From assembly GCA_031082005.1 (NCBI GenBank), contig JAVHLR010000001.1, positions 873,251-937,250 of the forward strand: a DNA stretch of 64,000 nt, in the 5' to 3' direction. A program made the position numbers and the translations under genes. Source of the DNA: Patescibacteria group bacterium (GTDB taxonomy: Bacteria; Patescibacteriota; Patescibacteriia; 2-12-FULL-60-25). The notes under the pieces were generated by a model. The model was not told the DNA's origin. It ran no database searches and was given only the letters and a program-made list of their open reading frames with translations. Below, piece after piece: positions 5,463 through 27,004 of this stretch (the first letter of the stretch is position 1; every line of letters begins with the position of its first letter).

Positions 5463-6422
5463 TCAGTGCACTATCTTCTTCAGGACGAGCTTTATTTTTT
5501 TTGGGATCATTGGTTTGAGCCTATCCCGCACAAAAAGCCTTAATGACTGCTTTAGATGGCCGCGCTTCACCAGACTTACGACCTTGTCGTAGGGCACGCT
5601 TGTCTTGATCGCAGCTTCCCAGCTCGTTGCCTGTGCCGCTGTCGAGCCGAAAGGCATCGCAACCACAGTCAACGGTTGATCGAAGGGCCCGTGCGCTACG
5701 ACCTTAAAACCATTGCGCCGCAAAAACAAGAATAGGCTGAAGGGCGAAAAATATTGGACATGCGGAAAACGGAAATACATGTTCCGCGGGACCGTCAGCG
5801 CACAGATATTCGGTACGCCGATATACACTGCACCATCCTCGGCACACAGCTTCCGCAGCGCGTCCCCCACCTCATCAGGCTGCAGAAAATGTTCAAGCAC
5901 GTGGTGCATGATGATCAGATCGAATTTCCCGTCTGAAAGGCGGGCGATATGTTCACTCAACACCCCAGGCAACAATTCAAGTCCAAAAACCTCATGCGCC
6001 ACTTTTTGCCCGATGGGATCAGGTTCGATACCCACGACCTCCTGCGCCTGATAGTCATCCCTTAATGCCGCCAAGACATTGCCGTAACCAGCGCCGATCT
6101 CTAAGACCCTCATACCAGGACGGATGTACGGCGTGATGAATTTCAGCAGCCTCGCCGTCTTCGCTTTGTTGCTGTCCGCTAAGGCGACCAGACCCTCACG
6201 ATCGTCGATCTTGTTGAACTCAAGGCTGAATCCGCTGCGGTAGAATTCATCGTACGTCTCTTGCCTGGCTCGCGGATTCAGATACACGTGGCTGCATCGT
6301 CTGCAGATGACGCTGCGCAATTTTTTGCCCGCAGACGACCTCTCATCCAATACCAAGCCGTCATCACTCTTGCAGACTGGGCAACGCACCGGTTCTAGCG
6401 TTCCGTTATCGTTGTTTTCCAT
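5463..6422 (-). CDS. Class I SAM methyltransferase with N-terminal zinc finger
   Basis: The 319-residue protein has an N-terminal rubredoxin-like zinc site, CPVC (C14, C17) paired with CRRC (C40, C43). A Rossmann methyltransferase domain follows with the SAM-binding motif VLEIGAGYGN (106-115), the acidic GIEPD at strand 2, and MHHVLEHF. The C-terminal segment FPHVQYFSPFSLFLFLRRNGF is shared with its neighbours (only part of it is needed to recognise them). It is one of four zinc-finger methyltransferases in the window and the third of a tandem trio in transcription order. The family includes sugar C- and O-methyltransferases, so methylation of a nucleotide sugar or glycan is likely; the acceptor is unknown. 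Confidence 0.85.
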   Translation of the reverse strand: MENNDNGTLEPVRCPVCKSDDGLVLDERSSAGKKLRSVICRRCSHVYLNPRARQETYDEFYRSGFSLEFNKIDDREGLVALADSNKAKTARLLKFITPYIRPGMRVLEIGAGYGNVLAALRDDYQAQEVVGIEPDPIGQKVAHEVFGLELLPGVLSEHIARLSDGKFDLIIMHHVLEHFLQPDEVGDALRKLCAEDGAVYIGVPNICALTVPRNMYFRFPHVQYFSPFSLFLFLRRNGFKVVAHGPFDQPLTVVAMPFGSTAAQATSWEAAIKTSVPYDKVVSLVKRGHLKQSLRLFVRDRLKPMIPKKIKLVLKKIVH

Positions 6423-6423
6423 A

Positions 6424-7392
6424 TCAAAAAGAATCGCCGATCTTACGGATCAGCCGTCTGACTTTGAGGCTTAAAGGCTGGATAAATCGTCCAGGCACGA
6501 CCCTCTCCACCGCTCCTTTTACGCCACGCAACAGGCCATACACCAGCTTCGCCTTCCGAATCACCCGCACCACATCACTTGGCTCGCTCCCGACGGAAAA
6601 AGCACTGGCCTTGACCATATTCTCCGGCTCTTCGAACCTCGTAGCTACGGCCTCCAAGCCGCTCCGCGGAGGCCTCAACCGTGGGTTCAGGCTGATTGTC
6701 TTCAGGCCAGACAGATTCAAAGCATGATTCAAGCTCCAGGGCGAATAACTGACGACGTGCGGATATTGGAAAAACGCCTCGACCGGCTCCTGCAATTCGG
6801 TCACGTTGGGCACGACGATATAAAATTTCCCGCCAGGCGATAATTTTTGCGTCAGCCTCTTCAAAGCCGCGACCGGTTCGCTGATATGTTCCAACACGTG
6901 GTGCATGATGATCATGTCGAATTTACGCCCGTCGGCTTGCGACAAGTAATCGTCCAACAACCCATGGAACACCTCGATCCCATATTCCTCCGCCGCGAAT
7001 TTCCCCGAGACCTCTGACGGCTCGACTCCAAAAACCTGCGCACCGCACTCGTCTTTGATCCTTTTCAAAAAAAATCCGTATCCGCAGCCGATCTCCAAGA
7101 CCTTAGAATCCGCAGACAGAAATCTTTTTATGCTATCGACTGGATATTTCTCCAGACTCTTCTTGTTTTTCGCCCTCTCCCTCGCTTCGTCGACAGACGC
7201 AATATGGTGACGCTCCTGGATGAATTGTTTGTGATAATAACTATCCAAATCCTCTTTCGTCGGCACGGGATCTATATAGACCAAACCGCAGCGACGACAT
7301 ACGACATTGACCAAATCCTCCACATAATCGGCTTTTGTCGCGACTATCTGGGCATCATCCGAGCTGCACAGTGGGCATCTGGTCCTTTGCAT
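6424..7392 (-). CDS. Class I SAM methyltransferase with N-terminal zinc finger
   Basis: Second member of the tandem trio, 322 residues. The zinc ligands are CPLC (C6, C9) and CRRC (C32, C35). The SAM motif is KVLEIGCGYGFF (97-108), followed by FGVEPSE, MIIMHHVLEHI and the YPHVVSYSPWSLNHAL segment typical of this family. It lies one base from the next gene, so the trio is co-transcribed. The pairs differ enough in sequence to suggest three separate methylation steps rather than a recent duplication. Confidence 0.85.
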   Translation of the reverse strand: MQRTRCPLCSSDDAQIVATKADYVEDLVNVVCRRCGLVYIDPVPTKEDLDSYYHKQFIQERHHIASVDEARERAKNKKSLEKYPVDSIKRFLSADSKVLEIGCGYGFFLKRIKDECGAQVFGVEPSEVSGKFAAEEYGIEVFHGLLDDYLSQADGRKFDMIIMHHVLEHISEPVAALKRLTQKLSPGGKFYIVVPNVTELQEPVEAFFQYPHVVSYSPWSLNHALNLSGLKTISLNPRLRPPRSGLEAVATRFEEPENMVKASAFSVGSEPSDVVRVIRKAKLVYGLLRGVKGAVERVVPGRFIQPLSLKVRRLIRKIGDSF

Positions 7393-7394
7393 AT

Positions 7395-8336
7395 TTAACT
7401 CGCTTTCCTTCTCCCTCCCAAACCCAACGGAAATAAACTCTTTATCTTTCGAAGCGCCCTAAACATGTAATGTCTACGATCGTGTCTTTTTATGTAACTA
7501 AACATTTTCTCGGAATCAGAACCTTCCAAGAATTCATTGAATGGCACCGCTTCAAATGGCGCCTCCGCCCTCGTCGCAGCTATCTGCAACTGCATGGCAT
7601 CATCAAAACCCCACTTTACTATCTTCAAGCCGTGGCTGTTCAACAGATGATGGATAGACCAAGGGGTATATGTGAACAGATGCCCGTATTCAAGAGAATG
7701 AGCAAGTTCTCGAGATGCGCGCATCCTGGCACCGTTCGGGAATGCGAGATACAGGGCGCCTTCACTCGTCAGTAGGTTCTTGAGCTGCTCAATCCTTCTA
7801 TGCGGAGATTTCAGGTGCTCTAAGACGTGTCGCAGGATGACCAGATCATAGGTACCCTGATCACGCGAGCAGAAATCATCCAAGAACTCATGCCTAATAT
7901 CAGGAAGTTTAAAAAATTCCCGCGCGACCCGCACGTATAATTCGTCCGGCTCTACGCCCGTGACTTTACCGGTATAACGCTCATGCAAATCAGACAATAA
8001 CGCTCCGGTGCTGCAGCCAATATCCAAAATATCAGTGTCCTTCTTCAATAAAGGCTCAAGAAAACCGATCACACGCAATTCTTTCCGTCCCTCGTTCTTC
8101 TTCTTTCTCTCTGCGCTCAAGACGATTTCTTCATACCCAGCAGCAGTCTTGTCCTGCAAAAACCCACCCTGGTAATACTTTGACAGCTCCTCATCAGACG
8201 GCGCCGGGTCATTAAAAATCAGTCCGCAGCGCATGCATAAGACATTAATCACCTTCCTCGGCTCACCCTTTTTGAGTGCAGCAAGATGGCAAACCTCTCG
8301 GCGTTCCGCAGAACCACAAATCTCACAACGGCTCAT
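7395..8336 (-). CDS. Class I SAM methyltransferase with N-terminal zinc finger
   Basis: First of the tandem trio in transcription order, 313 residues. The zinc ligands are CEIC (C4, C7) and CMRC (C34, C37). The SAM-binding motif is DILDIGCSTGALL (102-114), followed by TGVEPDE and ILRHVLEHL. Its ATG overlaps the stop of the nucleotidyltransferase gene at 8333 by four bases. This translational coupling ties the methyltransferases to the cyclitol-type genes upstream and suggests that the methylated acceptor may be the product of that pathway. The last point is inference. Confidence 0.85.
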   Translation of the reverse strand: MSRCEICGSAERREVCHLAALKKGEPRKVINVLCMRCGLIFNDPAPSDEELSKYYQGGFLQDKTAAGYEEIVLSAERKKKNEGRKELRVIGFLEPLLKKDTDILDIGCSTGALLSDLHERYTGKVTGVEPDELYVRVAREFFKLPDIRHEFLDDFCSRDQGTYDLVILRHVLEHLKSPHRRIEQLKNLLTSEGALYLAFPNGARMRASRELAHSLEYGHLFTYTPWSIHHLLNSHGLKIVKWGFDDAMQLQIAATRAEAPFEAVPFNEFLEGSDSEKMFSYIKRHDRRHYMFRALRKIKSLFPLGLGGRRKAS

Positions 8337-9076
8337 AAATGATTATAAAAGGATGAATTATTGCTTACCTCCTCCGTCGCCCTTGCCAGCTCTTCCGGAA
8401 AATCTACCTCCAGCCACCTTGATCCGCTGATATCGGCGGTTTCGATGCGCTGTCCCATGTCCGCCATCCTCTGCCAAACATGTTCCAGGTTGGCGGAAGG
8501 ACCGAAAACATCCTCAGCCTCCCCGATAGTTTCCTTGACTAGACCGATTAATGACTTGGGGCAATAAGAGAATCCCACGTATCCACAATCGTACTCCTTC
8601 AAGGTCTTGGACAATTTCAACACCCGTCCGTCTCCCGGATCGAGAGAGACTTTCATGTCATCATCGCCCAAGACGCGATCCCGATCGATGAATATCGTCA
8701 ACGATCCGCCGAACTGTCGCTTAGCCCTTTCTGCTATGTCTTTCCTGAAGATATGGTCAGCGGTCATGACCACGAACGACCCATCAACCTTAGCCAAAGC
8801 GCGCTCCAGTGTCGTCGCACTTCCTTTTAGATATTCATCATTATGTATCAACTCGCATTCAGGATCGAATTGACGGACGACCGACGACAGAGCCTCGGCG
8901 CCATAACCTGTAACGACAATCCGTTTCTCGACACCCAAATCCCTCAAAAAAGCCAGACCGAAGCGTATCAATTCCACGCCCGCGACCTGCATCAAAGGTT
9001 TAGGTTTGTCCTGCGTCAGCTCACCCAATCTGACGCCTCTACCGGCTGCCATGATTATTCCAGTCAAGCCTTCCAT
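8333..9076 (-). CDS. Sugar/cyclitol-phosphate nucleotidyltransferase (probably CTP-dependent)
   Basis: The 247-residue single-domain nucleotidyltransferase shows the NTP-binding loop IIMAAGRGVRLGEL (7-20), DKPKPLMQVAG, the metal-binding Asp in VVMTADHIF (D107) and a second acidic site in SRWLEVDFPEEL near the C-terminus. The ADH form of the metal motif and the C-terminal SRWxxVD resemble CTP:inositol-1-phosphate and phosphocholine cytidylyltransferases more than RmlA/GalU. It overlaps the kinase gene at 9064 by 13 bases. With the kinase upstream it would activate a phosphorylated cyclitol or polyol, giving a CDP-linked donor for the transferase encoded at 12970. Base specificity (C versus U or G) is not proved by the sequence. 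Confidence 0.8.
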   Translation of the reverse strand: MEGLTGIIMAAGRGVRLGELTQDKPKPLMQVAGVELIRFGLAFLRDLGVEKRIVVTGYGAEALSSVVRQFDPECELIHNDEYLKGSATTLERALAKVDGSFVVMTADHIFRKDIAERAKRQFGGSLTIFIDRDRVLGDDDMKVSLDPGDGRVLKLSKTLKEYDCGYVGFSYCPKSLIGLVKETIGEAEDVFGPSANLEHVWQRMADMGQRIETADISGSRWLEVDFPEELARATEEVSNNSSFYNHL

Positions 9077-10008
9077 ATCTTTTCGATGGATTTCCTGCTC
9101 TTGGCCAGATCACGATACGCAGCCAAGAAGTGCCGATGGTTCTTCAATGCTTGCTCGGTAGAGAATCGCATGGGCCAATCTAAAGCTTCGCGCAACAACC
9201 TGAAACGGATCAAATCGTAAAAAAGCCGCTTCTCTATCTTCGTCAAAGGCTTCACCGATTCATATCCTGCCAGCAAAGACGATAGCGAACCCTTCACCAA
9301 CTCACCTCCTGGAAAACAGGTCCAGATGATCGTCGTCGCCAAATCGATCAGCAAAGCGTCATCATAGACATTATCGAAATCTATGAAACTGATGGTTCCA
9401 TCATTACCCATCACGATATTGTCCGGTTTAACGTCCTGATGCGTCACACCGGTGGGCAGTCTCTCCAGGTCACCCAGGGTGGCATACTCGGCCGACATGA
9501 AATAGATATCATCGACGCGGATACCGTCACGTAACGCCAAAATACGCTTCACGCCATTCTTCATTATCCACGCGACTTCCGGGAAGCTCCAACGCTCCCG
9601 ATCGACAGACGGAAGTTTCATGCCTTCGGTAGCCATATGCATCTGGCCCAACATCCTACCGACTTGATGCAGAATCTCGGCGTTCCACCTCTTCAGAGGC
9701 TTGCCCGGAATAAAATCCAGAAGGATCGTCGGCTTCCCTTGCCATACCGTCTGGCTCTTGCCGGCCAAGGTCTTACGGACCCTCGGACAACTGAAGCCGT
9801 GCTTCGCCAGACGATCGAGAACCGCTATCTCATACGCGACTTGTTGCGGGTTCCTTAAGGTGTAGCGCTTGAATACGAAATCGCCCTCCTCGGATTTAAT
9901 CCGATGGTTGATGTTGATCATGCCATCATCCAACCCTAAAAGCACCACGGGATGGATCCCGTACTCCTTCATCAGGAAATGCTTAAGGTCTTCAGACGCT
10001 CTCTTCAT
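9064..10008 (-). CDS. APH/choline-kinase-type small-molecule kinase
   Basis: This 314-residue protein belongs to the aminoglycoside phosphotransferase / choline kinase / homoserine kinase II superfamily. The phosphate-binding loop region is GMININHRI, the ATP-site Lys lies in FVFKRY (K48), the catalytic loop is THQDVKPDN (D192, N197) and the metal-binding Asp lies in ISFIDFDN (D210). The superfamily phosphorylates hydroxyls of small molecules. Its position between a sugar-phosphate cyclase gene and a nucleotidyltransferase gene, overlapping both (17 and 13 bases), suggests a cyclitol or sugar kinase. An antibiotic-resistance role is unlikely in this context. Confidence 0.85.
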   Translation of the reverse strand: MKRASEDLKHFLMKEYGIHPVVLLGLDDGMININHRIKSEEGDFVFKRYTLRNPQQVAYEIAVLDRLAKHGFSCPRVRKTLAGKSQTVWQGKPTILLDFIPGKPLKRWNAEILHQVGRMLGQMHMATEGMKLPSVDRERWSFPEVAWIMKNGVKRILALRDGIRVDDIYFMSAEYATLGDLERLPTGVTHQDVKPDNIVMGNDGTISFIDFDNVYDDALLIDLATTIIWTCFPGGELVKGSLSSLLAGYESVKPLTKIEKRLFYDLIRFRLLREALDWPMRFSTEQALKNHRHFLAAYRDLAKSRKSIEKIWKA

Positions 10009-11875
10009 AACTACGGTTGATCGCCTCCCTGATCACATCATCGCCGCATGAGACGAAATAGTGTCCCCGATCGTGCCACATCTCCCCGATCTTCCTGATC
10101 AGCACGAACTTCGCCTCGCCACCATGGAACTTCTTGTTGCACCGCAACAGGTTGATGATGTCATCTGCTTTGATGTCGCGCGGTATGGTCGTGGGCAAAG
10201 CGTAGCGCTTCATGAGATCCACTTGTTGTCGCAACGTCTCTTCGTCGCTTATGCCCATGAGGCAAGCCAATTCCGCCGAAGTCCGCATACCGACAGCTAC
10301 AGCCTCACCATGACCCAACTTGTATCCGGAAAGGTATTCGACTGCATGACCGATCTCATGCCCGTATTGGTAGACCAAAGCCACATTGTCCTCATAAAAA
10401 TCCTTCTCTAACGAATCGATCTTCAGCTTGATGCTCTGCCGAATTGCGTCTTCCAAGAATGGGATATCTTTAGGCTTTCCTTCATGCGCCGCGAAGAAAT
10501 CGAAATACTTCTTATCCTGTGCGAATGCTTGCTTCAGACACTCGCTTAACCCGTCACTCACATACCTGTCATCCAAAGTCGCCAATACATCCGGATCGAC
10601 TAATATCTTCAATGGCGCATAATAACTCCCGATCAGATTCTTTCCGCCCTCGCCGTTCACGCCCTGTTTGAAGCCGATGGCTGCATCACACTGCGCCAAG
10701 ACGGTCGTAGGGATGTGTATCGAACCGACACCGCGATAAAGCGTCGCAGCCAGAAAGCCGGCGATATCCTTGATCACTCCGCCGCCCAGGGACAAGATGA
10801 TGGATTTCTTATCGATGCCTTCACCCAAGATCTGGTTCGCCAAACGTAGATACACATCGACACTCTTTGACCACTCACCCGGGTCGACGACCAGCTTCGA
10901 CATGTTGTAGCCCAACTCCCGGAACTGTGCGAGGACCTTTTCGCCATACAGGCTATCGATGTTCTTGTCGACGATGAGACAATGCTTTGAATAGTAGGAT
11001 TCGTGCGGAATTATCTCGTATTCTTTTATCTTCTCGAGCAAGCCTCGCTCCACGAAGACATCGAAGGATACCGGCTTCTGGTAATTCAAAGTGATCGGCG
11101 AAGTCATGGCGCGTAGCTCGCGAGGCTCCGAACTCTGCTGGGAAGATAGCGAACGCAAGAATAACTCGGCCCTGATGAGCACAGCCGGGGTGTTCACGTC
11201 GAACCATCTGCTGCCGCCATAATCGACGGACCTTACTCTTCCTGTCTCGATATAATCCTTGAGCAAAGTCTCTAAAGAATTTGCAGCCGTACATGTCGCC
11301 GCCTGCTTGAAGAAATCCTGAGCGACTTCCTTGCCCAAATGAAGTATCCCGATCTCATATGCCGACGGCTTCGCCAGATCGACACCGGTCTTGACGATCT
11401 TGTCGTTCTCCAGCTCAACCCGGGCGGTCGCGCCTGAAGCCTCTCCGGACTTCTCATCCGTACCGATTAATACCCGAATCAAACCATCTCCCTCATCTCC
11501 ATGTTCGAATAATGCAAATGGATTCTTTTCAAAAATCAAATCGCACGGCGTGACGAAAAGCGGCCCTTCGGCCCTCCCCGACATCGCCGCGATCGAACCC
11601 AGCATGCTGTTGGATTCGGGATCTTGCTCTACATATTCGATTTCCGCCTTGACCGCAGGCTCACCCAACAAAGCCCGCTTGACCAGAGTGTCCCGAGTCG
11701 GCACGACGACGAATATCTTCTTGATACCGACATCCTGCAGATATTCTATCATCCAAAGAATCAGAGGCTTGCCTCCAAGCCTAACCAGTGGTTTGATGGT
11801 CTCAAAGCCCTCCAGCCTCTTGCCTGGTCCCCCTGCCAGGATCACAGCAGTTTCCGTCACTGTTTTTTCCGCCAT
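9992..11875 (-). CDS. Fused nucleotidyltransferase and DHQS-like sugar-phosphate cyclase
   Basis: A 627-residue two-domain protein. Residues 1-250 are a nucleotidyltransferase: ILAGGPGKRL (12-21), IKPLVRLGGKPL, FVTPCD with metal-ligand D112, and SRWFDVNTP (222-230). Residues 258-627 are a sugar-phosphate cyclase of the dehydroquinate-synthase superfamily: SLGGGVIKDIAGF (362-374), RGVGSIHIPTTVLAQ, GFKQGVN (401-407), GKNLIG, Glu445 in SECLKQ, and the metal-site histidines of YGHEIGHAVE (H506, H510) and LGHGEA (H522). The FKQGVN form has KQ where dehydroquinate synthase has KT; 2-deoxy-scyllo-inosose synthase also has KQ there. The frame continues 28 codons upstream, but the ATG at 11875 has an AAAGGAT site next to it and begins the NTP domain. 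This is the first gene of the operon and is divergent from the dehydrogenase at 11939. Confidence 0.85.
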   Translation of the reverse strand: MAEKTVTETAVILAGGPGKRLEGFETIKPLVRLGGKPLILWMIEYLQDVGIKKIFVVVPTRDTLVKRALLGEPAVKAEIEYVEQDPESNSMLGSIAAMSGRAEGPLFVTPCDLIFEKNPFALFEHGDEGDGLIRVLIGTDEKSGEASGATARVELENDKIVKTGVDLAKPSAYEIGILHLGKEVAQDFFKQAATCTAANSLETLLKDYIETGRVRSVDYGGSRWFDVNTPAVLIRAELFLRSLSSQQSSEPRELRAMTSPITLNYQKPVSFDVFVERGLLEKIKEYEIIPHESYYSKHCLIVDKNIDSLYGEKVLAQFRELGYNMSKLVVDPGEWSKSVDVYLRLANQILGEGIDKKSIILSLGGGVIKDIAGFLAATLYRGVGSIHIPTTVLAQCDAAIGFKQGVNGEGGKNLIGSYYAPLKILVDPDVLATLDDRYVSDGLSECLKQAFAQDKKYFDFFAAHEGKPKDIPFLEDAIRQSIKLKIDSLEKDFYEDNVALVYQYGHEIGHAVEYLSGYKLGHGEAVAVGMRTSAELACLMGISDEETLRQQVDLMKRYALPTTIPRDIKADDIINLLRCNKKFHGGEAKFVLIRKIGEMWHDRGHYFVSCGDDVIREAINRSYEESV

Positions 11876-11880
11876 ATCCT

Positions 11881-11909
11881 TTGACTTTCCTTGCTTATTT
11901 GAGTAATAT
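11881..11909 (+). promoter_or_regulatory. Candidate promoter of the dehydrogenase gene
   Basis: -35 TTGACT (11881-11886), a 17-base spacer and -10 TAATAT (11904-11909). The start codon is 29 bases further, and no Shine-Dalgarno sequence is visible before it. The site lies in the 63-base divergent gap between the cyclase fusion and the dehydrogenase, so both could be controlled together. Confidence 0.55.
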
Positions 11910-11938
11910 CCCTTCTTAAGAATCCAACAGACCTTAAC

Positions 11939-12973
11939 ATGAAAGCCGCACTCATTCAATCACCCGGAAGACTGGAAATCCAAGAAATTCCGGAGCCGAT
12001 TATCGGCGAATACGATGCCTTATGCACCGTGCTTTGCGCTTCCATCTGCAACGGCACGGATCATCACGCCATCCGCGGCGACGCCTTCTTCGATCTCCGT
12101 TTCCCGACCATCCTGGGCCACGAAGGCATCGGGCGCGTGGAAAAGATCGGATCTAAGGTCAAATACATAAAAATCGGCGACCTCATGACACGGGTAGTGA
12201 ACAAACTTCCTTCATCAAGCGGGATCTCCGTCAAACCCGGATGGGGCTCGTTCGCCGAACGCGGTATCGTCGTAGATTGGCAAGCCATGCGTGACGACGG
12301 AGTCCCCGAAGAAGTATGGCGTCCTTTCATGGTCAACCAGCAGTTGCCGCCCGACGCGGATCCCGTCAAATCTACGATGGTCATCACTTGGCGCGAGACC
12401 CTGGCCTTCCTCAACCGACTGGACTTGAAACGGAAGGAAAAAATCCTGATACTCGGGACCGGGGCGAATGCGTTAGCCTTCGTCGAGCACTCGCGCAACA
12501 AAGACGCTGATATCACCGTCTGCGGCAACCCTTCGCGCGAAAGGACATTCCTTCAGGGCGGCACGCACAACTTCGTCTCATATCAATCACCGGATGCGGA
12601 AAAAACGATCGGGTCCTTCGGGCCATTCGATACGATCCTTGATGCGATCGGGGATGCGGCCGGTTTGAACAGACGCTTGGTGCACCTGAAACCCGGAGGA
12701 AAAATCGCCGTATACGGACTGGACGGAGTCACAGACTACAGATTGGACGTTTTCCGCATCCCGCAGGGGTTCGCTTTCTTCAACGGCATCTATTACGAGG
12801 AAGGCACGACGCATGATGAGGTATTACAGTCGATAAAAGACGACCGGTTGTCAGCCGATCTGTACATCTCACCGGAGCACATCTATCCCTTCTCGCGGAT
12901 GAACGAAGCTCTTTCCGCCAGCCGAGACAGAAAAACGCTGAAAAGCGTCATCGATTTCAGGCTCGCCGACTAA
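11939..12973 (+). CDS. Zinc-dependent medium-chain alcohol/polyol dehydrogenase
   Basis: The 344-residue product is a medium-chain (MDR) dehydrogenase. The catalytic zinc ligands are Cys37 (CASICNGTD) and His61-Glu62 (GHEGIGRV), and the NAD(P) site is ILGTGANALAF near residue 175. The four-cysteine structural zinc loop is replaced by a cysteine-free segment (about residues 86-102). Relatives include sorbitol, threonine and 2-deoxy-scyllo-inosamine dehydrogenases. Divergent by 63 bases from the sugar-phosphate cyclase fusion and overlapping the CDP-alcohol transferase gene tail-to-tail by four bases, it fits a step reducing or oxidising a cyclitol. The direction of the reaction and the cofactor are not visible. 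Confidence 0.85.
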   Translation: MKAALIQSPGRLEIQEIPEPIIGEYDALCTVLCASICNGTDHHAIRGDAFFDLRFPTILGHEGIGRVEKIGSKVKYIKIGDLMTRVVNKLPSSSGISVKPGWGSFAERGIVVDWQAMRDDGVPEEVWRPFMVNQQLPPDADPVKSTMVITWRETLAFLNRLDLKRKEKILILGTGANALAFVEHSRNKDADITVCGNPSRERTFLQGGTHNFVSYQSPDAEKTIGSFGPFDTILDAIGDAAGLNRRLVHLKPGGKIAVYGLDGVTDYRLDVFRIPQGFAFFNGIYYEEGTTHDEVLQSIKDDRLSADLYISPEHIYPFSRMNEALSASRDRKTLKSVIDFRLAD

Positions 12974-19518: not shown

Positions 19519-20226
19519 CTATTTGTTGAGTTTACGGCGCATCAAAAAATCCGCGATCTCGAAGTCGAGCGGGGTGTTGATGTCGACCGACACATCTTCC
19601 GGCATGACGTAAGCGCGGGAGTCCTTGCCGAACAAATCACTCTGAGCGATAGACGCGACCTTGGTCAGATACACGGCGCAATTACGTTTGAATACGCCGC
19701 CTAGAGCCTGACGCGAACTGCTCTGCGTGCCTTCATCTTCCATCCACGGTTTGATCACGTCGCCCTCCAGCACTTTCAATTTTTTGGCGGCGAAATCCGA
19801 CAGCTTCACCATACTCATGACCGAATCGCAATCCGTACGCCGCATCAGCTCGATGCACGCATCGATGTCTTCAGCCGTGCGGAACGGACTGGTCGGCTGC
19901 AGGATCATCAGCGCGTCATAAGTCTTGCCTTCGTTCTCCTTCATCCAAGCCAAAGCATGCTGCACTACCGCCATACTGGTCGCGGTATCCGTCGCCAATT
20001 CTTCCGGGCGCAGGAACGGCACGGGCGCACCGAAATGACGCGATACGTCTGCGATTTCCTGGTCGTCCGTCGAAACGAAAAAATCCGTCAACAGCTTGCT
20101 GCCCTTTGCTGCTTCGATAGTCCAAGCTATCAAAGGTTTCCCCGCTAAATCTTTTATATTCTTGCGCGGAATCCCCTTCGAGCCTCCACGTGCCGTTATC
20201 ACGGCCAATACTTTCAGATCGTTCAT
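19519..20226 (-). CDS. neuA: Acylneuraminate-type cytidylyltransferase (NeuA/LegF/PseF-like)
   Basis: The 235-residue enzyme has the signature VITARGGSKGIPRKNIKDL (9-27), STDDQEIADV near residue 52, and MILQPTSPFR. It activates a nonulosonic acid (sialic, legionaminic or related) as CMP-sugar. It is encoded with a 2-hydroxyacid dehydrogenase and a NeuC-like epimerase, and a NeuB-like synthase lies 5.6 kb upstream. The exact nonulosonate cannot be read from the sequence; legionaminic acid is as likely as sialic acid. Confidence 0.88.
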   Translation of the reverse strand: MNDLKVLAVITARGGSKGIPRKNIKDLAGKPLIAWTIEAAKGSKLLTDFFVSTDDQEIADVSRHFGAPVPFLRPEELATDTATSMAVVQHALAWMKENEGKTYDALMILQPTSPFRTAEDIDACIELMRRTDCDSVMSMVKLSDFAAKKLKVLEGDVIKPWMEDEGTQSSSRQALGGVFKRNCAVYLTKVASIAQSDLFGKDSRAYVMPEDVSVDINTPLDFEIADFLMRRKLNK

Positions 20227-20232
20227 AAAATT

Positions 20233-21183
20233 TTATCCCTTCAAGGCGTCAACCACGGCTCCAGCGATCGCGTCTTCCGTCATAGCCATCGACTCACGCG
20301 TCGCGCCGCCAATATGCGGAGTCAATATCAGATTATCGTGTTTCGCTGCATATTCCCGCAACGAATTATCCTCAAGGAACTTGCCGTCAGCCGCTTCATC
20401 CTCCAAGACATCCAATGCCGCACCCGCAAGATGCCCTGATTCCAGAGCTGCATACAGGGCAGTTTCGTCGATGACTTGCCCACGCGCCGTGTTTATAAGG
20501 CGTGCACCGGATTTCATCCAAGCGAATTCCTGCGCGCCCAACATATGCGTCGTCTCCGGCGTCAGATAGACATGGACCGAAACGATATCGGATCGCCCCA
20601 AAAAAGTCCGCAAATCCCCCACCATTTCGACACACGCCGGAACGTTGGTCTGATACGGATCATACGCGATGACCTTTGCCCCCATCTTGTCCAAAATCTC
20701 CGCCACGCGATAACCCAAACGACCGCAACCAAGCAGGCCGATCGTCGCACCGCTGATCTCGTGACCGATGAAAAGATTACGGTCCCAACCTCCGCTGACC
20801 ACATGGTTATGGGCGAACGGTATCCTGCGCAACAACGCCAACATGAGTCCGATCGTATGTTCGGATGTGGCGTAAATCTTTTCCGTGACCTCGCGCCAAC
20901 CTTTCAGGCTGATGATGCGTATTCCTCGCTTCTCCGCCTCGATTACATCGATATGGTTCAATCCGGTCGTCGGCGTAGCGATTATCTTCAGTCGCGGTGC
21001 TTTGTCCAAAAAAGCTGCGTCGATATAAAAAGCCAAACGGAGGACAATCACCTCCGCATCATTCAACTCCTTATCCAGCGCATCACCGTCCAAAACCGCA
21101 GAACTGACGCTGCCCAGTTGCGAATATAAAGCAATCGACTTCGGGCTGTAGTTAGTCGGTTCCAAGATGACGGTTTTTGCCAT
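20233..21183 (-). CDS. D-2-hydroxyacid dehydrogenase (phosphoglycerate dehydrogenase-like)
   Basis: 316 residues with the NAD-binding motif GLLGCGRLGYRV (149-160), the catalytic Arg in NTARGQVID (R234), the Glu in DVLEDE (E261) and the His in LTPHIGGATRESM (H290). Family members reduce 2-keto acids to D-2-hydroxy acids. No ACT domain is present, so it is not a full SerA. It sits between neuA- and neuC-like genes with gaps of six and one bases. A role in the nonulosonate branch, such as reducing an alpha-keto acid or making a lactyl-type substituent, is possible but unproved. Confidence 0.85.
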   Translation of the reverse strand: MAKTVILEPTNYSPKSIALYSQLGSVSSAVLDGDALDKELNDAEVIVLRLAFYIDAAFLDKAPRLKIIATPTTGLNHIDVIEAEKRGIRIISLKGWREVTEKIYATSEHTIGLMLALLRRIPFAHNHVVSGGWDRNLFIGHEISGATIGLLGCGRLGYRVAEILDKMGAKVIAYDPYQTNVPACVEMVGDLRTFLGRSDIVSVHVYLTPETTHMLGAQEFAWMKSGARLINTARGQVIDETALYAALESGHLAGAALDVLEDEAADGKFLEDNSLREYAAKHDNLILTPHIGGATRESMAMTEDAIAGAVVDALKG

Positions 21184-21184
21184 A

Positions 21185-22378
21185 TCAATATGTGATGCTT
21201 TTTTGGACTCGGAAGGTGGCTCGCGCCAGGACCTCCGCGATCCTCTCGCCCGCTTTCCCGTCGCCGAACACGGGGTCCGATTCGTAACGTCCGTTCGCCA
21301 GCTGTCTGTTCAAGGCATCGAGAATCGACTGCCTGTCGTGCGGGACCTCCATCATCACGTTCCTGCCGTGCTCGCGACCGTGCTGCCGTGACCCCACGAT
21401 GATCGCCGGCGTCCCCAGGTAACTACCCTCACGGATGAAGGACGAAGAGTTGCCGACGGCGCATGCCGCATTAGCCAAGATCCTGGCATAGGTTTCCGGC
21501 GGGAAATTCTTATAAAAACGTATCGGCACTTCAGGATTGAACTCGCGGAAGATGCGCAGTGCTTTTGAGATCTGGTCTGACCCGGCATCGATGTTAGGCC
21601 ACAAAGCGATCGCCGGCATGCCCGTCATCTTGATGGCTTCTACCGTCTCCATCACCTGATCATGACCCGAGCCATATTCTGTCGTGACCGGATGTTGCAT
21701 CATCAGGATATACGGCTTAGTCACGTCGATCTTCGGACCCACGCCTTGATAACCCAACATCTCGATCTCTTCAGGCCTGAAATTCCGTTCCATCTGCGCC
21801 ACGATGTCTATCGCTGGGCAACCAGTGACATGAATCGTGTCTGGAGATTCGCCCATCTTGATCAGTCGCTCACCGCTCGATTGCGTCGCCGGAAAGTGGA
21901 TATGCGCCAACTTGGTCACTGCATGGCGTACATGCTCATCGATCGAACCCGTCACTTCACCGCCCTGCGTGTGCGCCACCGGTATGTTCATGTATGACGC
22001 TGCGATCGCCGTGGCGATCGTCTCAAAACGATCGGCGATGGTCAACACGACATCCGGCTTCAATCGATTCAGGGCGTTAGTGATCTCCAAGATGCCCAAT
22101 CCGACGGACTTTGCCATGGTCAACGGAGTTTCACCTTCGACCGCCATGTACGCCTCATGATCGACCTCAAAGCCTTCAGCCCGCATCACATCCACGCCTT
22201 TACCATGGCGCTCCAACAACAAAGACGAACCGCCGATTATCTGCAGTTCCAAATCAGGATGTTTGCGGATCGCGTCCAAAGCGGTCTTGATGCGTCCATA
22301 ATTCGCCCGACCGATTATGACGACGCAAACCTTACGCTTCTGCCTCATCCCGGAGTCGATATTCCCTATGTCAGACAT
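21185..22378 (-). CDS. neuC: Hydrolysing UDP-N-acetylglucosamine 2-epimerase (NeuC/LegG-like)
   Basis: 397 residues with a GT-B-like epimerase fold: IIGRANYGRIK near the start, IADRFETIATAIAA, HTQGGEVTGSIDEHVRHA, MQHPVTTEYG, and AVGNSSSFIREGSYLG binding the UDP part. The NeuC-type enzyme releases a 2-epimerised N-acyl hexosamine for the NeuB step. The ATG at 22378 is supported by a GGAGG seven bases upstream. It is the first gene of a minus-strand unit running epimerase, hydroxyacid dehydrogenase, cytidylyltransferase and asparagine synthase. Confidence 0.9.
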   Translation of the reverse strand: MSDIGNIDSGMRQKRKVCVVIIGRANYGRIKTALDAIRKHPDLELQIIGGSSLLLERHGKGVDVMRAEGFEVDHEAYMAVEGETPLTMAKSVGLGILEITNALNRLKPDVVLTIADRFETIATAIAASYMNIPVAHTQGGEVTGSIDEHVRHAVTKLAHIHFPATQSSGERLIKMGESPDTIHVTGCPAIDIVAQMERNFRPEEIEMLGYQGVGPKIDVTKPYILMMQHPVTTEYGSGHDQVMETVEAIKMTGMPAIALWPNIDAGSDQISKALRIFREFNPEVPIRFYKNFPPETYARILANAACAVGNSSSFIREGSYLGTPAIIVGSRQHGREHGRNVMMEVPHDRQSILDALNRQLANGRYESDPVFGDGKAGERIAEVLARATFRVQKSITY

Positions 22379-22395
22379 GATATTTTAGCCTCCAT

Positions 22396-22424
22396 AAACT
22401 ACTTTTATTTCGCGGAAAAGTCAA
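22396..22424 (-). promoter_or_regulatory. Candidate promoter of the neuC-neuA unit
   Basis: Read on the minus strand: -35 TTGACT (22424-22419), a 17-base spacer, -10 TAGTTT (22401-22396). A GGAGG Shine-Dalgarno site follows, seven bases before the ATG at 22378. Confidence 0.5.
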
Positions 22425-22459
22425 TACAGAATCAGCCTCAACCGACCATGCAAACAGAA

Positions 22460-22482
22460 GCCCGCTCTGGAGCAGAGCGGGC
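22460..22482 (-). terminator. Intrinsic terminator after the 22507-23568 gene
   Basis: A nine-base-pair GC-rich stem (22460-22468 with 22474-22482, loop of five), followed in the minus direction by TTCTGTTT. It ends the single-gene unit at 22507. The same tail follows the terminator at 23648. Confidence 0.85.
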
Positions 22483-22506
22483 GGTCGTGACTGTCAGATG
22501 TAGGTT

Positions 22507-23568
22507 TCAGACCAACGAAAGGACGGAATCCGCGACCTCGTCGATCGGGATAGAGCGGAAGACATGTTCCGCGTTTCGCCGTATCACCGGCGCAGCGTCT
22601 CGTGCCAGGGCGATGAGGTCGCAGGGCATATTCAGCTCGACTGCTATCCCCAGCTTGATGCCGGGATACTTGTCATAGGCGACCTGTTCGCCCAACAGAC
22701 GGCGGGTCAGCGCTGTCGAGATGCTCACCGCTGCCCGTCCGTGTTTTGCGGCGTACAGCAGCGCTGTACTCGATCCGGAAACGGTGACGTCGGCCATCGC
22801 CGCCAAAGCGCGCGAATCGGTGGACGCGTCGAATCCGGTATACACGATACCCCGCGTGGTCTTCATGAAGAACTCCGCGACGACGCCCTCCCACAGCGCC
22901 CTGTTCTGCGGGATATCGAGGTACTTGGGATGGAATCTCGGGATGAACGCGTAGGGTTGGCCCGAAGCATCCAGGGAAAGGAGCGTCAACGCCAGGAGCT
23001 CCGTCGTGCCGTCGCCCTCTCCGGCGAACATGACCACTGTGCCGAATTTCGCACGCAAGAGTTCCATATGCGCCTTCATCACAGACGGGACTTGGAATGA
23101 GTTCAACGCCGCGTTCCCCATGATGATGATCTCCGTCTTCTGGAATCGCGGCAGCTCGCGCATGAGATTCTCGCCGTAGCTGTCGAGTGTGAAAGCCATA
23201 TCTGCGGAGCACGGCATGCGTCGCGACGTGCCCCACACATCCTCCATGATGACGAGAGGTATGCCGAGCTCGTTCGCCGCCTGACCGCACTTGGCCTCGA
23301 GGTTGATGGGCGAACCCATCGTGCTGATGACCAGCTCTGCGCCGAGTCTGGTCAGTTCAGCCTTCACATCGACGGCGTACGGCTCCCGCTGGAAATCGAA
23401 GCTCCCCACGAAATCCACCGTATACCCTGCAGCCCCCCATTGGGCCACAGAGACTCCTTCGGCCATGATGGATATTTCATTCCCTCGCCGTTTCAGTTCT
23501 TCGGCAAGCGGGAAAGATACCTCATAACCGCCTTTGTCCTTCGTGACGAACACTATCTTACGAGCCAT
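22507..23568 (-). CDS. GT-B-fold-like protein of unknown function
   Basis: 353 residues from the ATG at 23568, chosen because GGAGG lies seven bases upstream; an open frame extends 20 codons further but crosses the promoter region. The N-terminus (IVFVTKDKGGYEVSFPLAEE) and the C-terminal segment VSGSSTALLYAAKHGRAAVS look like the two halves of a GT-B fold, similar to MurG or UDP-GlcNAc epimerases. No family name can be given with confidence. A single-gene unit with its own promoter and terminator, it lies inside a block that splits the nonulosonate genes. A glycosyltransferase or nucleotide-sugar enzyme role is inference. Confidence 0.6.
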   Translation of the reverse strand: MARKIVFVTKDKGGYEVSFPLAEELKRRGNEISIMAEGVSVAQWGAAGYTVDFVGSFDFQREPYAVDVKAELTRLGAELVISTMGSPINLEAKCGQAANELGIPLVIMEDVWGTSRRMPCSADMAFTLDSYGENLMRELPRFQKTEIIIMGNAALNSFQVPSVMKAHMELLRAKFGTVVMFAGEGDGTTELLALTLLSLDASGQPYAFIPRFHPKYLDIPQNRALWEGVVAEFFMKTTRGIVYTGFDASTDSRALAAMADVTVSGSSTALLYAAKHGRAAVSISTALTRRLLGEQVAYDKYPGIKLGIAVELNMPCDLIALARDAAPVIRRNAEHVFRSIPIDEVADSVLSLV

Positions 23569-23599
23569 GTCCAGGCCTCCTTGGTCAAAGGGACCGCAT

Positions 23600-23631
23600 A
23601 ACGTACTTGATCTGACCGAACGTGTCAAGTA
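23600..23631 (-). promoter_or_regulatory. Promoter with inverted repeat before the 22507-23568 gene
   Basis: Read on the minus strand: -35 TTGACA (23628-23623), a 17-base spacer, -10 TACGTT (23605-23600). The heptamers TACTTGA (23604-23610) and TCAAGTA (23625-23631), centres 21 bases apart, are perfect inverted copies overlapping both boxes. This is a possible operator. Confidence 0.6.
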
Positions 23632-23647
23632 ATACCAAGCAAACAGA

Positions 23648-23679
23648 AATCGCCTGCCGGTGAGGACCGACAGGCGATT
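23648..23679 (-). terminator. Intrinsic terminator after the 23692-24795 methyltransferase gene
   Basis: A nine-base-pair stem (23648-23656 with 23671-23679) with a small inner CGGT/ACCG helix, followed in the minus direction by TTCTGTTTGC. It starts 13 bases after the stop codon. Confidence 0.85.
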
Positions 23680-23691
23680 GAAGAGGTGGGA

Positions 23692-24795
23692 TTACTTGGC
23701 CAGGAAGATGAAATACTGGCCGTGAAGCGGGGTGTCGAGGATCTTGCGATCCTCCGTCGCCTCGAAACGCAGCCTGACCTCGATCTCCTTGGCCAGCGCG
23801 AACTTTGCGTCGAACGGGATATCGAGGTTGCCGAGCACCATGGGCAACCGCACGAACATGAAGTCCAGGGCATCGCCGTAAGTGACCGGCATGACGCGCT
23901 CGAACTGGGCGACGTTCAGGAGGTTCAAGCAGTTACGCCTGAAGACCTCCGACATGTTCTCGAGCGTGAACATGGGCGAAAGCGCCGGCATCTTGCGGTC
24001 GATGTCGTACCGCGTCTTGAGCAAATCGTTGATGCCACGATGCAGGGCGACGAACGCCGGATGATTGGCCAACGCGTGTTCCGCCATGTCCTGGTACGCC
24101 TGGTCGTCCTTCGTGGTGACGAAGTCGATCGGCTCGAGCAACGCCACGATGCCGTCTCGCTTCTTCACCCGCACAAGCGCCTGCAGAGCATCGTCCTGTG
24201 CTTTTGCGAGCGCCCAAATCGGTTCGACGCCCGCTTTGACGTGCTCCGCGCGCCGCTGGTTGACCGGCCAGTGCAGGAAGTTGTTGCCCACGATAGCATC
24301 GACTTCACCACCGAGCATCTCCGAAGTGAGATCTAGCGACGAAGCGAGTACCGTACGGAGCTTGCCGCCACGTCGGACGAAGCGGCTCTCGCGGAACTCG
24401 CGGCGCATGGACTCGAGGAAGGTCACCGTTGGCTCGAAGTACCTTCCGAGCACCTTCTCCGCTTCCACGCTGCGCAGGATCGATTCCAAGCTCTTGCTGC
24501 CGAAGAAGGTATGCTCGAGCAGGTTCAGATGCACCTGCGAGGTATCGGCACAGACAATCTCGGCTGGTGCATGCGCCGCGATAGCGAGTGCCGTCGTGCC
24601 GAACCCGCATCCCACGTCCAACACACGCTTGCCCGCGAGCCCACCAGGACACACCGCGTCAGCACATGCTGCTGCGGCAGTCGACTGGATACGGTACGAA
24701 GGCGCGATTGGCTCGCACGCGGCATACAGGATGCCGGAGAGCCCTTGGAACACGTTGTTCCTCGGATCCTGACCTTGCGTTGTCTGTGTCTGCAT
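23692..24795 (-). CDS. Class I SAM methyltransferase
   Basis: 367 residues from the ATG at 24795. A GGGAG lies seven bases upstream; the longer frame begins at a TTG six codons earlier and is not preferred. The SAM motif is KRVLDVGCGFGTTAL (56-70), with VCADTS at strand 2 and VDAIVGNNFLHWP further on. The protein is longer than the usual 250-residue stand-alone methyltransferases and has a helical C-terminal half. It follows the transporter gene by 14 bases and ends at a strong terminator, so the two form a two-gene unit. The substrate is unknown. Confidence 0.78.
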   Translation of the reverse strand: MQTQTTQGQDPRNNVFQGLSGILYAACEPIAPSYRIQSTAAAACADAVCPGGLAGKRVLDVGCGFGTTALAIAAHAPAEIVCADTSQVHLNLLEHTFFGSKSLESILRSVEAEKVLGRYFEPTVTFLESMRREFRESRFVRRGGKLRTVLASSLDLTSEMLGGEVDAIVGNNFLHWPVNQRRAEHVKAGVEPIWALAKAQDDALQALVRVKKRDGIVALLEPIDFVTTKDDQAYQDMAEHALANHPAFVALHRGINDLLKTRYDIDRKMPALSPMFTLENMSEVFRRNCLNLLNVAQFERVMPVTYGDALDFMFVRLPMVLGNLDIPFDAKFALAKEIEVRLRFEATEDRKILDTPLHGQYFIFLAK

Positions 24796-24809
24796 GACCC
24801 AACTCCCTT

Positions 24810-25745
24810 TCAACCACGTGAAATAAGGATGACTCCGATGCTCATAAGCAAGACCGCGACCAACCGCGAACGGAAGGATTTACGCTCGCGCAAGATGAGA
24901 TAAGCCAATATGACCACGAAGAACGTTTCCGAACGTTTGACGGTCGCCTGATAAGCCACGAACAGAAAGCGGAACGACCACCAAAAGAATCCCGTCGCGA
25001 TAGCGAACAACGCCCCTCCGACCAACGCCGCATACGGCATGCCGCGCCGTCGATCGAAGAACTGGCTTCCCGCGCCTTTGGCTAAAGCGCGAGCCGTGTG
25101 CGCGACGGCAGAGAAGCTGATGACGCAAGCAAGCGCGAAGAGCGGCGGGCCAGCTCGTGAAGCAAGCCCATCGAACGGAATCGCCAGGCAACCGATAGCC
25201 GAGGCGGCGAAAGCCAGACGCACTCCGCGGGATCTCCCTAGCGCCAGCCAGGGTTCCAGGAATGCCCTCCAGGTCCAACGACCGCTATGCAGCTGTTCGA
25301 CCAAACCTTGGATATTCAAGGTGTAAGTACCTGCTACGAGGAGCAGGATACCCACATACCCGAATGCTGATGGACGCTCTCCAACGATGACCCAAGAAGT
25401 CAGGACTACCGCCGCCGGAGTCGTGTCCCTGATCGGTACGACCAACGACACGTCATCTTTGGTCTGTAGTGCTTTGAACCCCAAGTAGCTGATCAATATG
25501 TTCAGCGCTCCAGTGATCGCGACATATTTCCAGAAACCAGGAGCAAGTTCGATCGTGGTCCGCGTAGCGAACACAGTCGCAAAGAGCAGGACGGCCGCGG
25601 TAGCCATGACCCCGCCGTTCAGCACACTTTCTTCCGGCCTTTCTTCCTCGCTTTTCCCTCGATGGAGTAGGGTGCGCAAAGTGATGGCGTAAACAGCCGC
25701 CATCAAGGCACCAATCAATGTCAAAAGGACGCCAAAGAGATTCAT
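24810..25745 (-). CDS. EamA/DMT-superfamily membrane transporter
   Basis: 311 residues with about ten membrane segments in two five-helix halves, separated by a polar linker near residues 150-175. Signatures include NILISYLGFKALQ and VVPIRDTTPAAVVLTSW in the first half and YQATVKRSETFFVVILAYLI with ERKSFRSRL at the end of the second, typical of drug/metabolite transporters and of flippase-like family members. The ATG at 25745 has strong GGAG/GAGG sites before it. Encoded with a methyltransferase, it may move a lipid-linked sugar or a small precursor across the membrane; this is inference. Confidence 0.78.
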   Translation of the reverse strand: MNLFGVLLTLIGALMAAVYAITLRTLLHRGKSEEERPEESVLNGGVMATAAVLLFATVFATRTTIELAPGFWKYVAITGALNILISYLGFKALQTKDDVSLVVPIRDTTPAAVVLTSWVIVGERPSAFGYVGILLLVAGTYTLNIQGLVEQLHSGRWTWRAFLEPWLALGRSRGVRLAFAASAIGCLAIPFDGLASRAGPPLFALACVISFSAVAHTARALAKGAGSQFFDRRRGMPYAALVGGALFAIATGFFWWSFRFLFVAYQATVKRSETFFVVILAYLILRERKSFRSRLVAVLLMSIGVILISRG

Positions 25746-25769
25746 TTTCCTCTCTCCTTGTTCAAGGCG

Positions 25770-25798
25770 TCTTACGCCATTCTGGCGTATTTGTCAAG
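25770..25798 (-). promoter_or_regulatory. Promoter with operator-like palindrome before the transporter gene
   Basis: Read on the minus strand: -35 TTGACA (25798-25793), a 17-base spacer, -10 TAAGAC (25775-25770). Inside the spacer, TACGCCA (25774-25780) and TGGCGTA (25784-25790) form a perfect seven-base inverted repeat with a three-base centre. A CCTTG/CAAGG hairpin (25757-25768) lies next to the Shine-Dalgarno region. Confidence 0.65.
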
Positions 25799-25834
25799 CG
25801 TATCTACCCGCTTTTTCTTCTAAAAAAATTTAAA

Positions 25835-26968
25835 TCACTCTAAATCGCGTCGATCCAGCGGCTCTCCGCCCCTCTTTTGGACGATTACCTTTCTTCCGAT
25901 CAAATTTCCATACTCCTCCGAAGGTAAACCTGGCAAATAAGCCTGCGGCCGCTTTGCATGCAAATGTCGCGCCTCGATGATCGTACCCACCGGCAAATCC
26001 TGCGCTACGACCAGCGTCTTGCGGAACAACGGCCGGAATACCGCCTCCCCCTCATCCATCACCTTCTCTTTCTCCCCCATCCCCTTCTGCACGATTTCGT
26101 TCTGCAATATCTCCGCACGATATCTTGCGTCGCCGGAAATTTTTCTGATGCCCTGCACCAATCCCGTCATTTCCTGGGGCGTCAACGAAACTTTGTGGTC
26201 AGAACCCCAAAAGCCTCTGTCGAAAGAAAAATGCTTTTCGATCACCGTCGCACCCAAAGCGACCGCCGCGATAGATGATTCGATGGTCGTAGAATGGTCG
26301 GAAAAACCGACAGGGACGCCATAGCGTTCACGGAAGAACTCTATCGTCTTCAGATGCAGATCCTCGGGCGGACAAGGATAACGCGAGACGCAATGCAGCA
26401 GCACCACCTTATCCGTTTTTTCCTGCAAAAAAGCCATTGCCTTGTCGACTTCATCCAAAGTACTCATCCCAGCGCTGATGATGATCGGCTTTCCGCTATT
26501 CCTCAAATGATCGAGCATGACGAAATCCAAAATATCACCTGACCCGACCTTCCACAGCTGCGGCTCTACCTGATCGAGCTTATGCGCCGCACCTCGGCTC
26601 ATCGGGGTAGAGAAAAAAGTGATTCCGATCTCGTCGCATACTTGCTTCAAAGGTCTCCAAAAAGTCTCGACCGGCGTCGAAAGGTCATTGCGTTTGACCC
26701 AATTATATCTGTCCGACCCACGGAAGTGCGGAGAGACTACATCGATATTCGCTTGCTCATCTTCAAAGTTATGGGTCTGGAACTTCACCGCATCAGCACC
26801 CGCTTCTTTCGCGGCTTTCGCCAATGCAATCGCGTTCTGGAGATATTCTTCGGTCGATCTTTCGTCTTGCGTCTGGATGAAATTCTTGCCTATCTCGGCA
26901 ATGACAAAAACCGGATGGCCCTCACCCAACCGTCTTTCACCCTCTGGGGAATCAAAGACTATCGACAT
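25835..26968 (-). CDS. neuB: N-acetylneuraminate synthase family protein (NeuB/LegI-like)
   Basis: 377 residues from the ATG at 26968. The N-terminal TIM barrel has FVIAEIGKNF (21-30), DAVKFQTH, FFSTPMS, KVGSGD, IISAGM, LLHCVSRYP, GFSDHS and VIEKHFSFDR. A C-terminal antifreeze/SAF domain (about 310-377) carries RSLVVA-like RKTLVVAQDLPVG. The enzyme condenses an N-acyl mannosamine-type sugar with phosphoenolpyruvate. An upstream TTG at 27004 in the same frame lies in a -35 box, so the ATG is preferred. It is separated from the neuC and neuA genes by a three-gene block. Confidence 0.92.
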   Translation of the reverse strand: MSIVFDSPEGERRLGEGHPVFVIAEIGKNFIQTQDERSTEEYLQNAIALAKAAKEAGADAVKFQTHNFEDEQANIDVVSPHFRGSDRYNWVKRNDLSTPVETFWRPLKQVCDEIGITFFSTPMSRGAAHKLDQVEPQLWKVGSGDILDFVMLDHLRNSGKPIIISAGMSTLDEVDKAMAFLQEKTDKVVLLHCVSRYPCPPEDLHLKTIEFFRERYGVPVGFSDHSTTIESSIAAVALGATVIEKHFSFDRGFWGSDHKVSLTPQEMTGLVQGIRKISGDARYRAEILQNEIVQKGMGEKEKVMDEGEAVFRPLFRKTLVVAQDLPVGTIIEARHLHAKRPQAYLPGLPSEEYGNLIGRKVIVQKRGGEPLDRRDLE

Positions 26969-26975
26969 CAACCCG

Positions 26976-27004
26976 ACATTAATCGAAATAGCGTCCCGAG
27001 TCAA
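26976..27004 (-). promoter_or_regulatory. Candidate promoter of the neuB gene
   Basis: Read on the minus strand: -35 TTGACT (27004-26999), a 17-base spacer, -10 TAATGT (26981-26976). The ATG at 26968 follows the -10 by seven bases, so transcription would start at or next to the start codon. Confidence 0.5.

Follow-up and report, generated by a model that had tools for sequence, protein, structure and literature searches.

In the genome of a Patescibacteria group bacterium, one gene encodes a nucleotidyltransferase joined to a sugar-phosphate cyclase. It lies in a stretch of 64,000 nucleotides on contig JAVHLR010000001.1 (positions 873,251 to 937,250), referred to here as the window. Together with its neighbours the gene looks like an undescribed route by which a ring-shaped sugar alcohol is made and placed on the cell surface. 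The preferred reading, given a probability of about 0.55, is that the fused protein is bifunctional and belongs to a cyclitol branch encoded within a surface-glycan locus; the cyclitol would be made, reduced, phosphorylated, CDP-activated and moved as a phosphodiester. In this reading the sequence of the steps, the substrate, the choice of CTP and the acceptor are presumptive. A bolder and distinctly more tentative proposal is that such fusions form an undescribed specificity class of cyclase. The same protein would CDP-activate the cyclitol, which would then be passed on as a phosphodiester and give a new cyclitol-phosphate decoration on the surface of a small-genome bacterium.

Structure, conservation and distribution of the fusion gene

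The fusion gene is a single frame at 9992-11875 on the minus strand. Its translation of 627 residues is stop-free; the plus strand contains many stops. The preliminary description of this DNA had reported the frame without its strand, along with the motifs GGPGKRL, D112, GGGVIKD, GFKQGVN and GHEIGH, and all of these are present. Three Pfam domains are found above their gathering scores: NTP_transf_3 at residues 10-115 (1.6e-15), DHQ_synthase at 328-439 (3.5e-35) and DHQS_C at 442-582 (1.7e-28). The N-terminal domain is MobA/inositol-phosphate-cytidylyltransferase-like. The C-terminal half belongs to the sugar-phosphate cyclase superfamily, as seen from its two domains and its metal ligands. 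The predicted structure of the whole protein has a mean pLDDT of 54, with most of the nucleotidyltransferase half below 50.

The same fusion occurs in frame in other genomes. FK3.bin42 (L002; apparently the same locus as G381), from the same genus, carries a version with 88% identity, and its flanks are collinear with the window across ~20 kb. In G402, which belongs to another family of the class, the fusion is 613 residues long and aligns end to end at 37% identity. This recurrence rules out an assembly artefact, the possibility against which the preliminary description had warned, and shows that the fusion is not a product of chance. Synonymous sites of the window and FK3 genes are near saturation (dS, the synonymous divergence, is about 1.1-1.6), and the nonsynonymous divergence (dN) is low, at 0.10 for the nucleotidyltransferase half and 0.04 for the cyclase half; both halves are therefore under purifying selection.

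The fusion is rare, and was found in three genomes. It is present in two of the four genomes of the genus and, among 380 genomes sampled from the class, in its own genome, G381 and G402 only. A sample of 380 genomes from the phylum yielded none besides its own genome, and there were none in 373 genomes of another class of the phylum or in a profile scan of viral contigs. A tblastn search of plasmids and phages gave no match covering 80% of the query, the best matches being cyclase-only. So patchy a distribution would fit a surface locus that is mobile or frequently lost. The fusion is not described in the open-licence PMC literature; UniProt and InterPro architectures were outside that search, and a catalogued instance is possible.

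Specificity of the cyclase half

Residues of the cyclase half were compared in an alignment of the fusions with 35 sequences of the dehydroquinate synthase (DHQS) type, 31 of them from the same phylum, five of the 2-deoxy-scyllo-inosose synthase (DOIS) type, including BtrC, and ValA and EboD. E445, H506 and H522 of the fusion align with DHQS E194, H271 and H287, the Glu-His-His metal ligands; most of the other catalytic residues of DHQS are also retained in the fusions. A499, Q503, E507 and N580 stand at the sites of DHQS R264, N268, T272 and D355. Ala and Gln occupy the first two of these sites in all three fusions. R264 is present in 32 of the 35 DHQS-type sequences and N268 in 30, and no DOIS has R264. 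In DHQS, R264 binds the substrate carboxylate; its loss thus points to a carboxylate-free substrate for the fusions.

Gln follows the active-site lysine in every DOIS-type sequence (5/5) and in no DHQS-type sequence (0/35), and it does so in the fusions as well. The Lys-Gln pair is thus DOIS-like and not DHQS-like, as had been proposed from the window alone. With Gly or Ala at the R264 site as the second DOIS feature, the fusion cyclase has both. In the tree the three fusions form one clade (support 100/99), which is sister to DOIS (99/95). However, DOIS carries Glu, Thr and Asp at the sites of N268, T272 and D355, has Asn in place of K356 and shows a DNKRGY stretch close to its C-terminus, whereas the fusion cyclase has Q, E and N at the first three sites and retains K356; N580-K581-K582 follow one another without insertion and the DNKRGY motif is lacking. 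The DOIS affinity first suggested by the Lys-Gln pair is therefore upheld by that motif and by the tree, but as an identity it does not hold: judged by its residues, the fusion cyclase would be DOIS-like and not simply a DOIS. A protein with the DOIS fingerprint (LSLKQAVN, LEYGHTIGH, DNKRGY) is encoded on a viral-classed contig (L108, IMGVR_UViG_3300050821_010487, 1501-2478).

The cyclase domain is the sole DHQ_synthase match in its own genome (1.3 Mb, rated 100% complete). Chorismate synthase was not found in this genome by a search that was positive in 14 of 14 control genomes, nor was DAHP synthase (PF00793), for which 11 of 14 controls were positive. Both the tree and these missing genes exclude the case set against the DOIS-like assignment in the preliminary description, namely a true DHQS accompanied by a complete shikimate pathway. 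Inositol-1-phosphate synthase was likewise not found in the genome, so an inositol-like substrate would need another source. The genome encodes both a phosphoglucose isomerase-like and a transketolase domain; because of this, glucose 6-phosphate and sedoheptulose 7-phosphate both remain candidate substrates. The phosphoglucose isomerase-like match (L104, G000:C3:651053-652144) contains one internal TGA, and is possibly a broken gene or the end of a frame.

Gene neighbourhood and proposed route

The genes around the fusion are listed in Table 1. The kinase gene shares bases both with the end of the fusion gene and with the second nucleotidyltransferase gene; the CDP-alcohol phosphotransferase gene comes after the divergent dehydrogenase gene. 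In G402 the genes run tightly along one strand as dehydrogenase, kinase, CDP-alcohol phosphotransferase, fusion and second nucleotidyltransferase, and there the second nucleotidyltransferase is itself fused to a TylF-type methyltransferase. The dehydrogenases of the two clusters are 44% identical. Two distant fusions, from different families, thus share the same four partners, and this shared gene set points to one pathway.

Table 1. The fusion gene, its two halves and the adjoining genes in the window
Feature	Coordinates	Strand	Remarks
Fusion gene, nucleotidyltransferase and sugar-phosphate cyclase, 627 aa	9992..11875	-	ATG at 11875
Nucleotidyltransferase half, residues 1-255	11111..11875	-	R20, K28, D112, D226 present
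Cyclase half, residues 256-627	9995..11110	-	Metal ligands E445, H506, H522; KQ at 403-404
APH-family small-molecule kinase, 314 aa	9064..10008	-	Pfam PF01636, 2.1e-25; related gene in G402 cluster
Second nucleotidyltransferase, 247 aa	8333..9076	-	Counterpart in G402
Zinc-type medium-chain alcohol dehydrogenase, 344 aa	11939..12973	+	Divergent from fusion gene, 63-base gap
CDP-alcohol phosphotransferase, 256 aa	12970..13740	-	Adjacent gene in G402
Three S-adenosylmethionine (SAM) methyltransferases, cysteine-rich starts	5463..8336	-	Directly downstream; kept in FK3, not in G402

The best nucleotidyltransferase model in NCBIfam for the fused half of the window protein is the Thermococcales inositol-1-phosphate cytidylyltransferase/DIPP synthase (IPCT-DIPPS), with 58 bits against a cut-off of 580; it should be noted that this model spans both domains of the Thermococcales fusion. 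In G402 the same model comes second to Arch_glmU, again below cut-off. IPCT-DIPPS is also the top model for the second nucleotidyltransferase and the second-best for the CDP-alcohol phosphotransferase, behind archaetidylinositol phosphate synthase, in each case far below cut-off. The kinase has a homoserine-kinase-like match, also below cut-off. R16, K26 and D112 (T. maritima numbering) have been named as catalytic in COG1213-type cytidylyltransferases (PMC12275187), and R20, K28 and D112 of the window protein correspond to them. An alignment that combined both domains misplaced the nucleotidyltransferases and was discarded.

The route would begin with the cyclase half, which is expected to be metal- and NAD-dependent and to convert a carboxylate-free sugar phosphate (glucose 6-phosphate as a first guess) to a phosphate-free cyclic ketone. 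The zinc dehydrogenase would reduce or otherwise adjust this ketone, and the APH-type kinase would phosphorylate the resulting cyclitol. The cyclitol phosphate would then be activated, most likely with CTP, by the fused nucleotidyltransferase half or by the second nucleotidyltransferase, and the CDP-alcohol phosphotransferase would attach the phospho-cyclitol to a membrane or glycan acceptor, either a surface glycan or a lipid. The acarbose pathway and the aminoglycoside route, both described below, serve as models for this scheme. The joining of an early to a late step had been called odd. The fusion is real, but the arrangement is less odd than it seemed, because the likely intermediate steps, those of the dehydrogenase and the kinase, are encoded beside the gene in both distant clusters, and because there is a precedent in HldE of ADP-heptose synthesis, which is a fusion of non-consecutive steps.

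Several points weigh against this route. When the diagnostic columns and four rows are removed from the alignment, the sister link between the fusions and DOIS weakens to 77/67, and with the diagnostic columns removed the best topology that places the fusions within DHQS is not firmly rejected (approximately unbiased test, p 0.067). The fusion fingerprint differs from that of DOIS, which makes glucose 6-phosphate only a first guess as substrate. The G402 fusion has Lys in place of the nucleotidyltransferase arginine R20, and the relevant NCBIfam matches of the nucleotidyltransferases and the phosphotransferase are all below their cut-offs. There are two nucleotidyltransferases for one kinase, and either of the two might act on the cyclitol. 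The dehydrogenase family also occurs at L105 (G476:C2, 9202-10242; 40% identity), beside radical SAM genes and with no cyclase nearby.

The same glycan locus includes NeuA/NeuB/NeuC-like nonulosonic acid genes and a phosphoglycerate-dehydrogenase-like gene (window 19519-27004).

Alternative explanations and known systems

The two halves may instead serve separate building blocks of one surface polymer. The cyclase would lead to the cyclitol and the fused nucleotidyltransferase would activate an ordinary sugar 1-phosphate, the fusion merely coupling their expression, while the kinase and the second nucleotidyltransferase would process the cyclitol. This is possible, although clearly less probable than a single bifunctional route. 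It would account for the presence of two nucleotidyltransferases, for the overlaps of the kinase gene with its neighbours on both sides (compare the LicA/LicC-like kinase-cytidylyltransferase pair), and for the matches of the fused half to sugar-1-phosphate families such as Arch_glmU and MurU. However, the inositol-phosphate cytidylyltransferase model also gives the fused half a good score, and the persistence of the fusion with the same four partners over such divergence suggests one pathway.

It is improbable that the cyclase uses sedoheptulose 7-phosphate and forms a C7 cyclitol of the valiolone type, nucleotide-activated as in validamycin and acarbose. The best-known pathways of cyclase, kinase and nucleotidyltransferase are of this C7 type; in the acarbose pathway the cyclase is followed by kinase steps and a cyclitol nucleotidyltransferase, and the kinase and nucleotidyltransferase activities are proven (PMC9200736). 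The transketolase domain would also fit. But the alignment has P at the H275 site and M at the K250 site for the C7 type, and differences at K250, R264, N268, T272, H275, K356 and others, as judged from the aligned sequences, separate it from the fusions; ValA and EboD are placed elsewhere in the tree, and an acarbose-type phosphatase or epimerase was not identified among the adjacent genes. The logic of cyclase, kinase and cyclitol nucleotidyltransferase (AcbC...AcbU-AcbR) is nonetheless common to both. AcbR and VldB, unlike the fusion, are glucose-1-phosphate-adenylyltransferase-like and prefer GTP, their system is unfused with a cyclase of the sedoheptulose 7-phosphate type, and the activated donor goes to a pseudoglycosyltransferase, whereas here it would go to a CDP-alcohol phosphotransferase.

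A degenerate or salvage DHQS is almost certainly the wrong identity, judged by residues, tree and genome content: aroB does give the top NCBIfam score of the cyclase half, but the window and G402 fusions (289.9 and 257.1 bits) miss the equivalog cut-off of 305 bits, DOIS-annotated proteins likewise have aroB as best model below cut-off, and the fusion lies in a glycan locus whereas many unfused relatives in the phylum adjoin aroA, aroK or aroC. The fusion resembles AroB in domain family, in metal ligands and in the equivalents of R130, D146, K152, N162, E194, K197, K250 and K356; it is unlike AroB in having A and Q for R264 and N268, in the Gln after the lysine and in the absence of the tested shikimate genes from its genome. 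Three AroB relatives in the same class (L094-L096, from G409, G685 and G497) carry His for DHQS R264, Ser for N268 and Asn for H275, and are another possible group of non-DHQS cyclases.

DOIS (BtrC, PDB 2d2x/2gru) is alike in the Lys-Gln motif, in the loss of R264 to G or A and as tree neighbour. It is unlike the fusion at the E/T/D sites, at K356 and in its DNKRGY stretch, and the fusion alone is joined to a nucleotidyltransferase with no aminotransferase nearby. In the aminoglycoside route, glucose 6-phosphate is converted to 2-deoxystreptamine by DOIS, an aminotransferase and a dehydrogenase (PMC5461906). Two queries found no DegT aminotransferase in the window, and amination of the 2-deoxystreptamine kind was set aside.

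Two further systems share parts of the chemistry. IPCT-DIPPS combines a COG1213-like nucleotidyltransferase with a CDP-alcohol phosphotransferase, and both types are present in the gene set; here, however, the nucleotidyltransferase is joined to a cyclase and not to the phosphotransferase, inositol-1-phosphate synthase is missing and the scores are far below cut-off. In the CpgD phosphoglycerate cytidylyltransferase pathway of Caulobacter, a COG1213 cytidylyltransferase likewise supplies a phosphodiester-linked group of a surface lipid, but the substrate is glycerate and not a cyclitol, and no cyclase is involved.

Most sugar-phosphate cyclases known from beyond the shikimate pathway come from organisms that produce antibiotics or sunscreens. 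The present one is retained in a 1.3 Mb genome which lacks the tested shikimate genes; fused to an activating enzyme, it seems to open a complete route to a surface cyclitol. If this is true, it would define a new specificity class within a well-studied enzyme superfamily, caution against the annotation of such genes as aroB, and provide a short list of genes behind a new phospho-cyclitol of the cell surface.

A related combination is found elsewhere in the phylum (L050, G286:C5:30000-47000, 6833-12696). An unfused AroB-like cyclase without the stretch around DHQS R264 is accompanied by an SDR, a MOFRL-type kinase, a nucleotidyltransferase, a GAPDH-like protein and a CDP-alcohol phosphotransferase. 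The cyclase has a long branch and its tie to the fusions is uncertain; the locus may be a second route in this phylum to a phosphodiester-linked cyclitol or glycerate, and hints that cyclase and CDP-alcohol chemistry have been assembled more than once.
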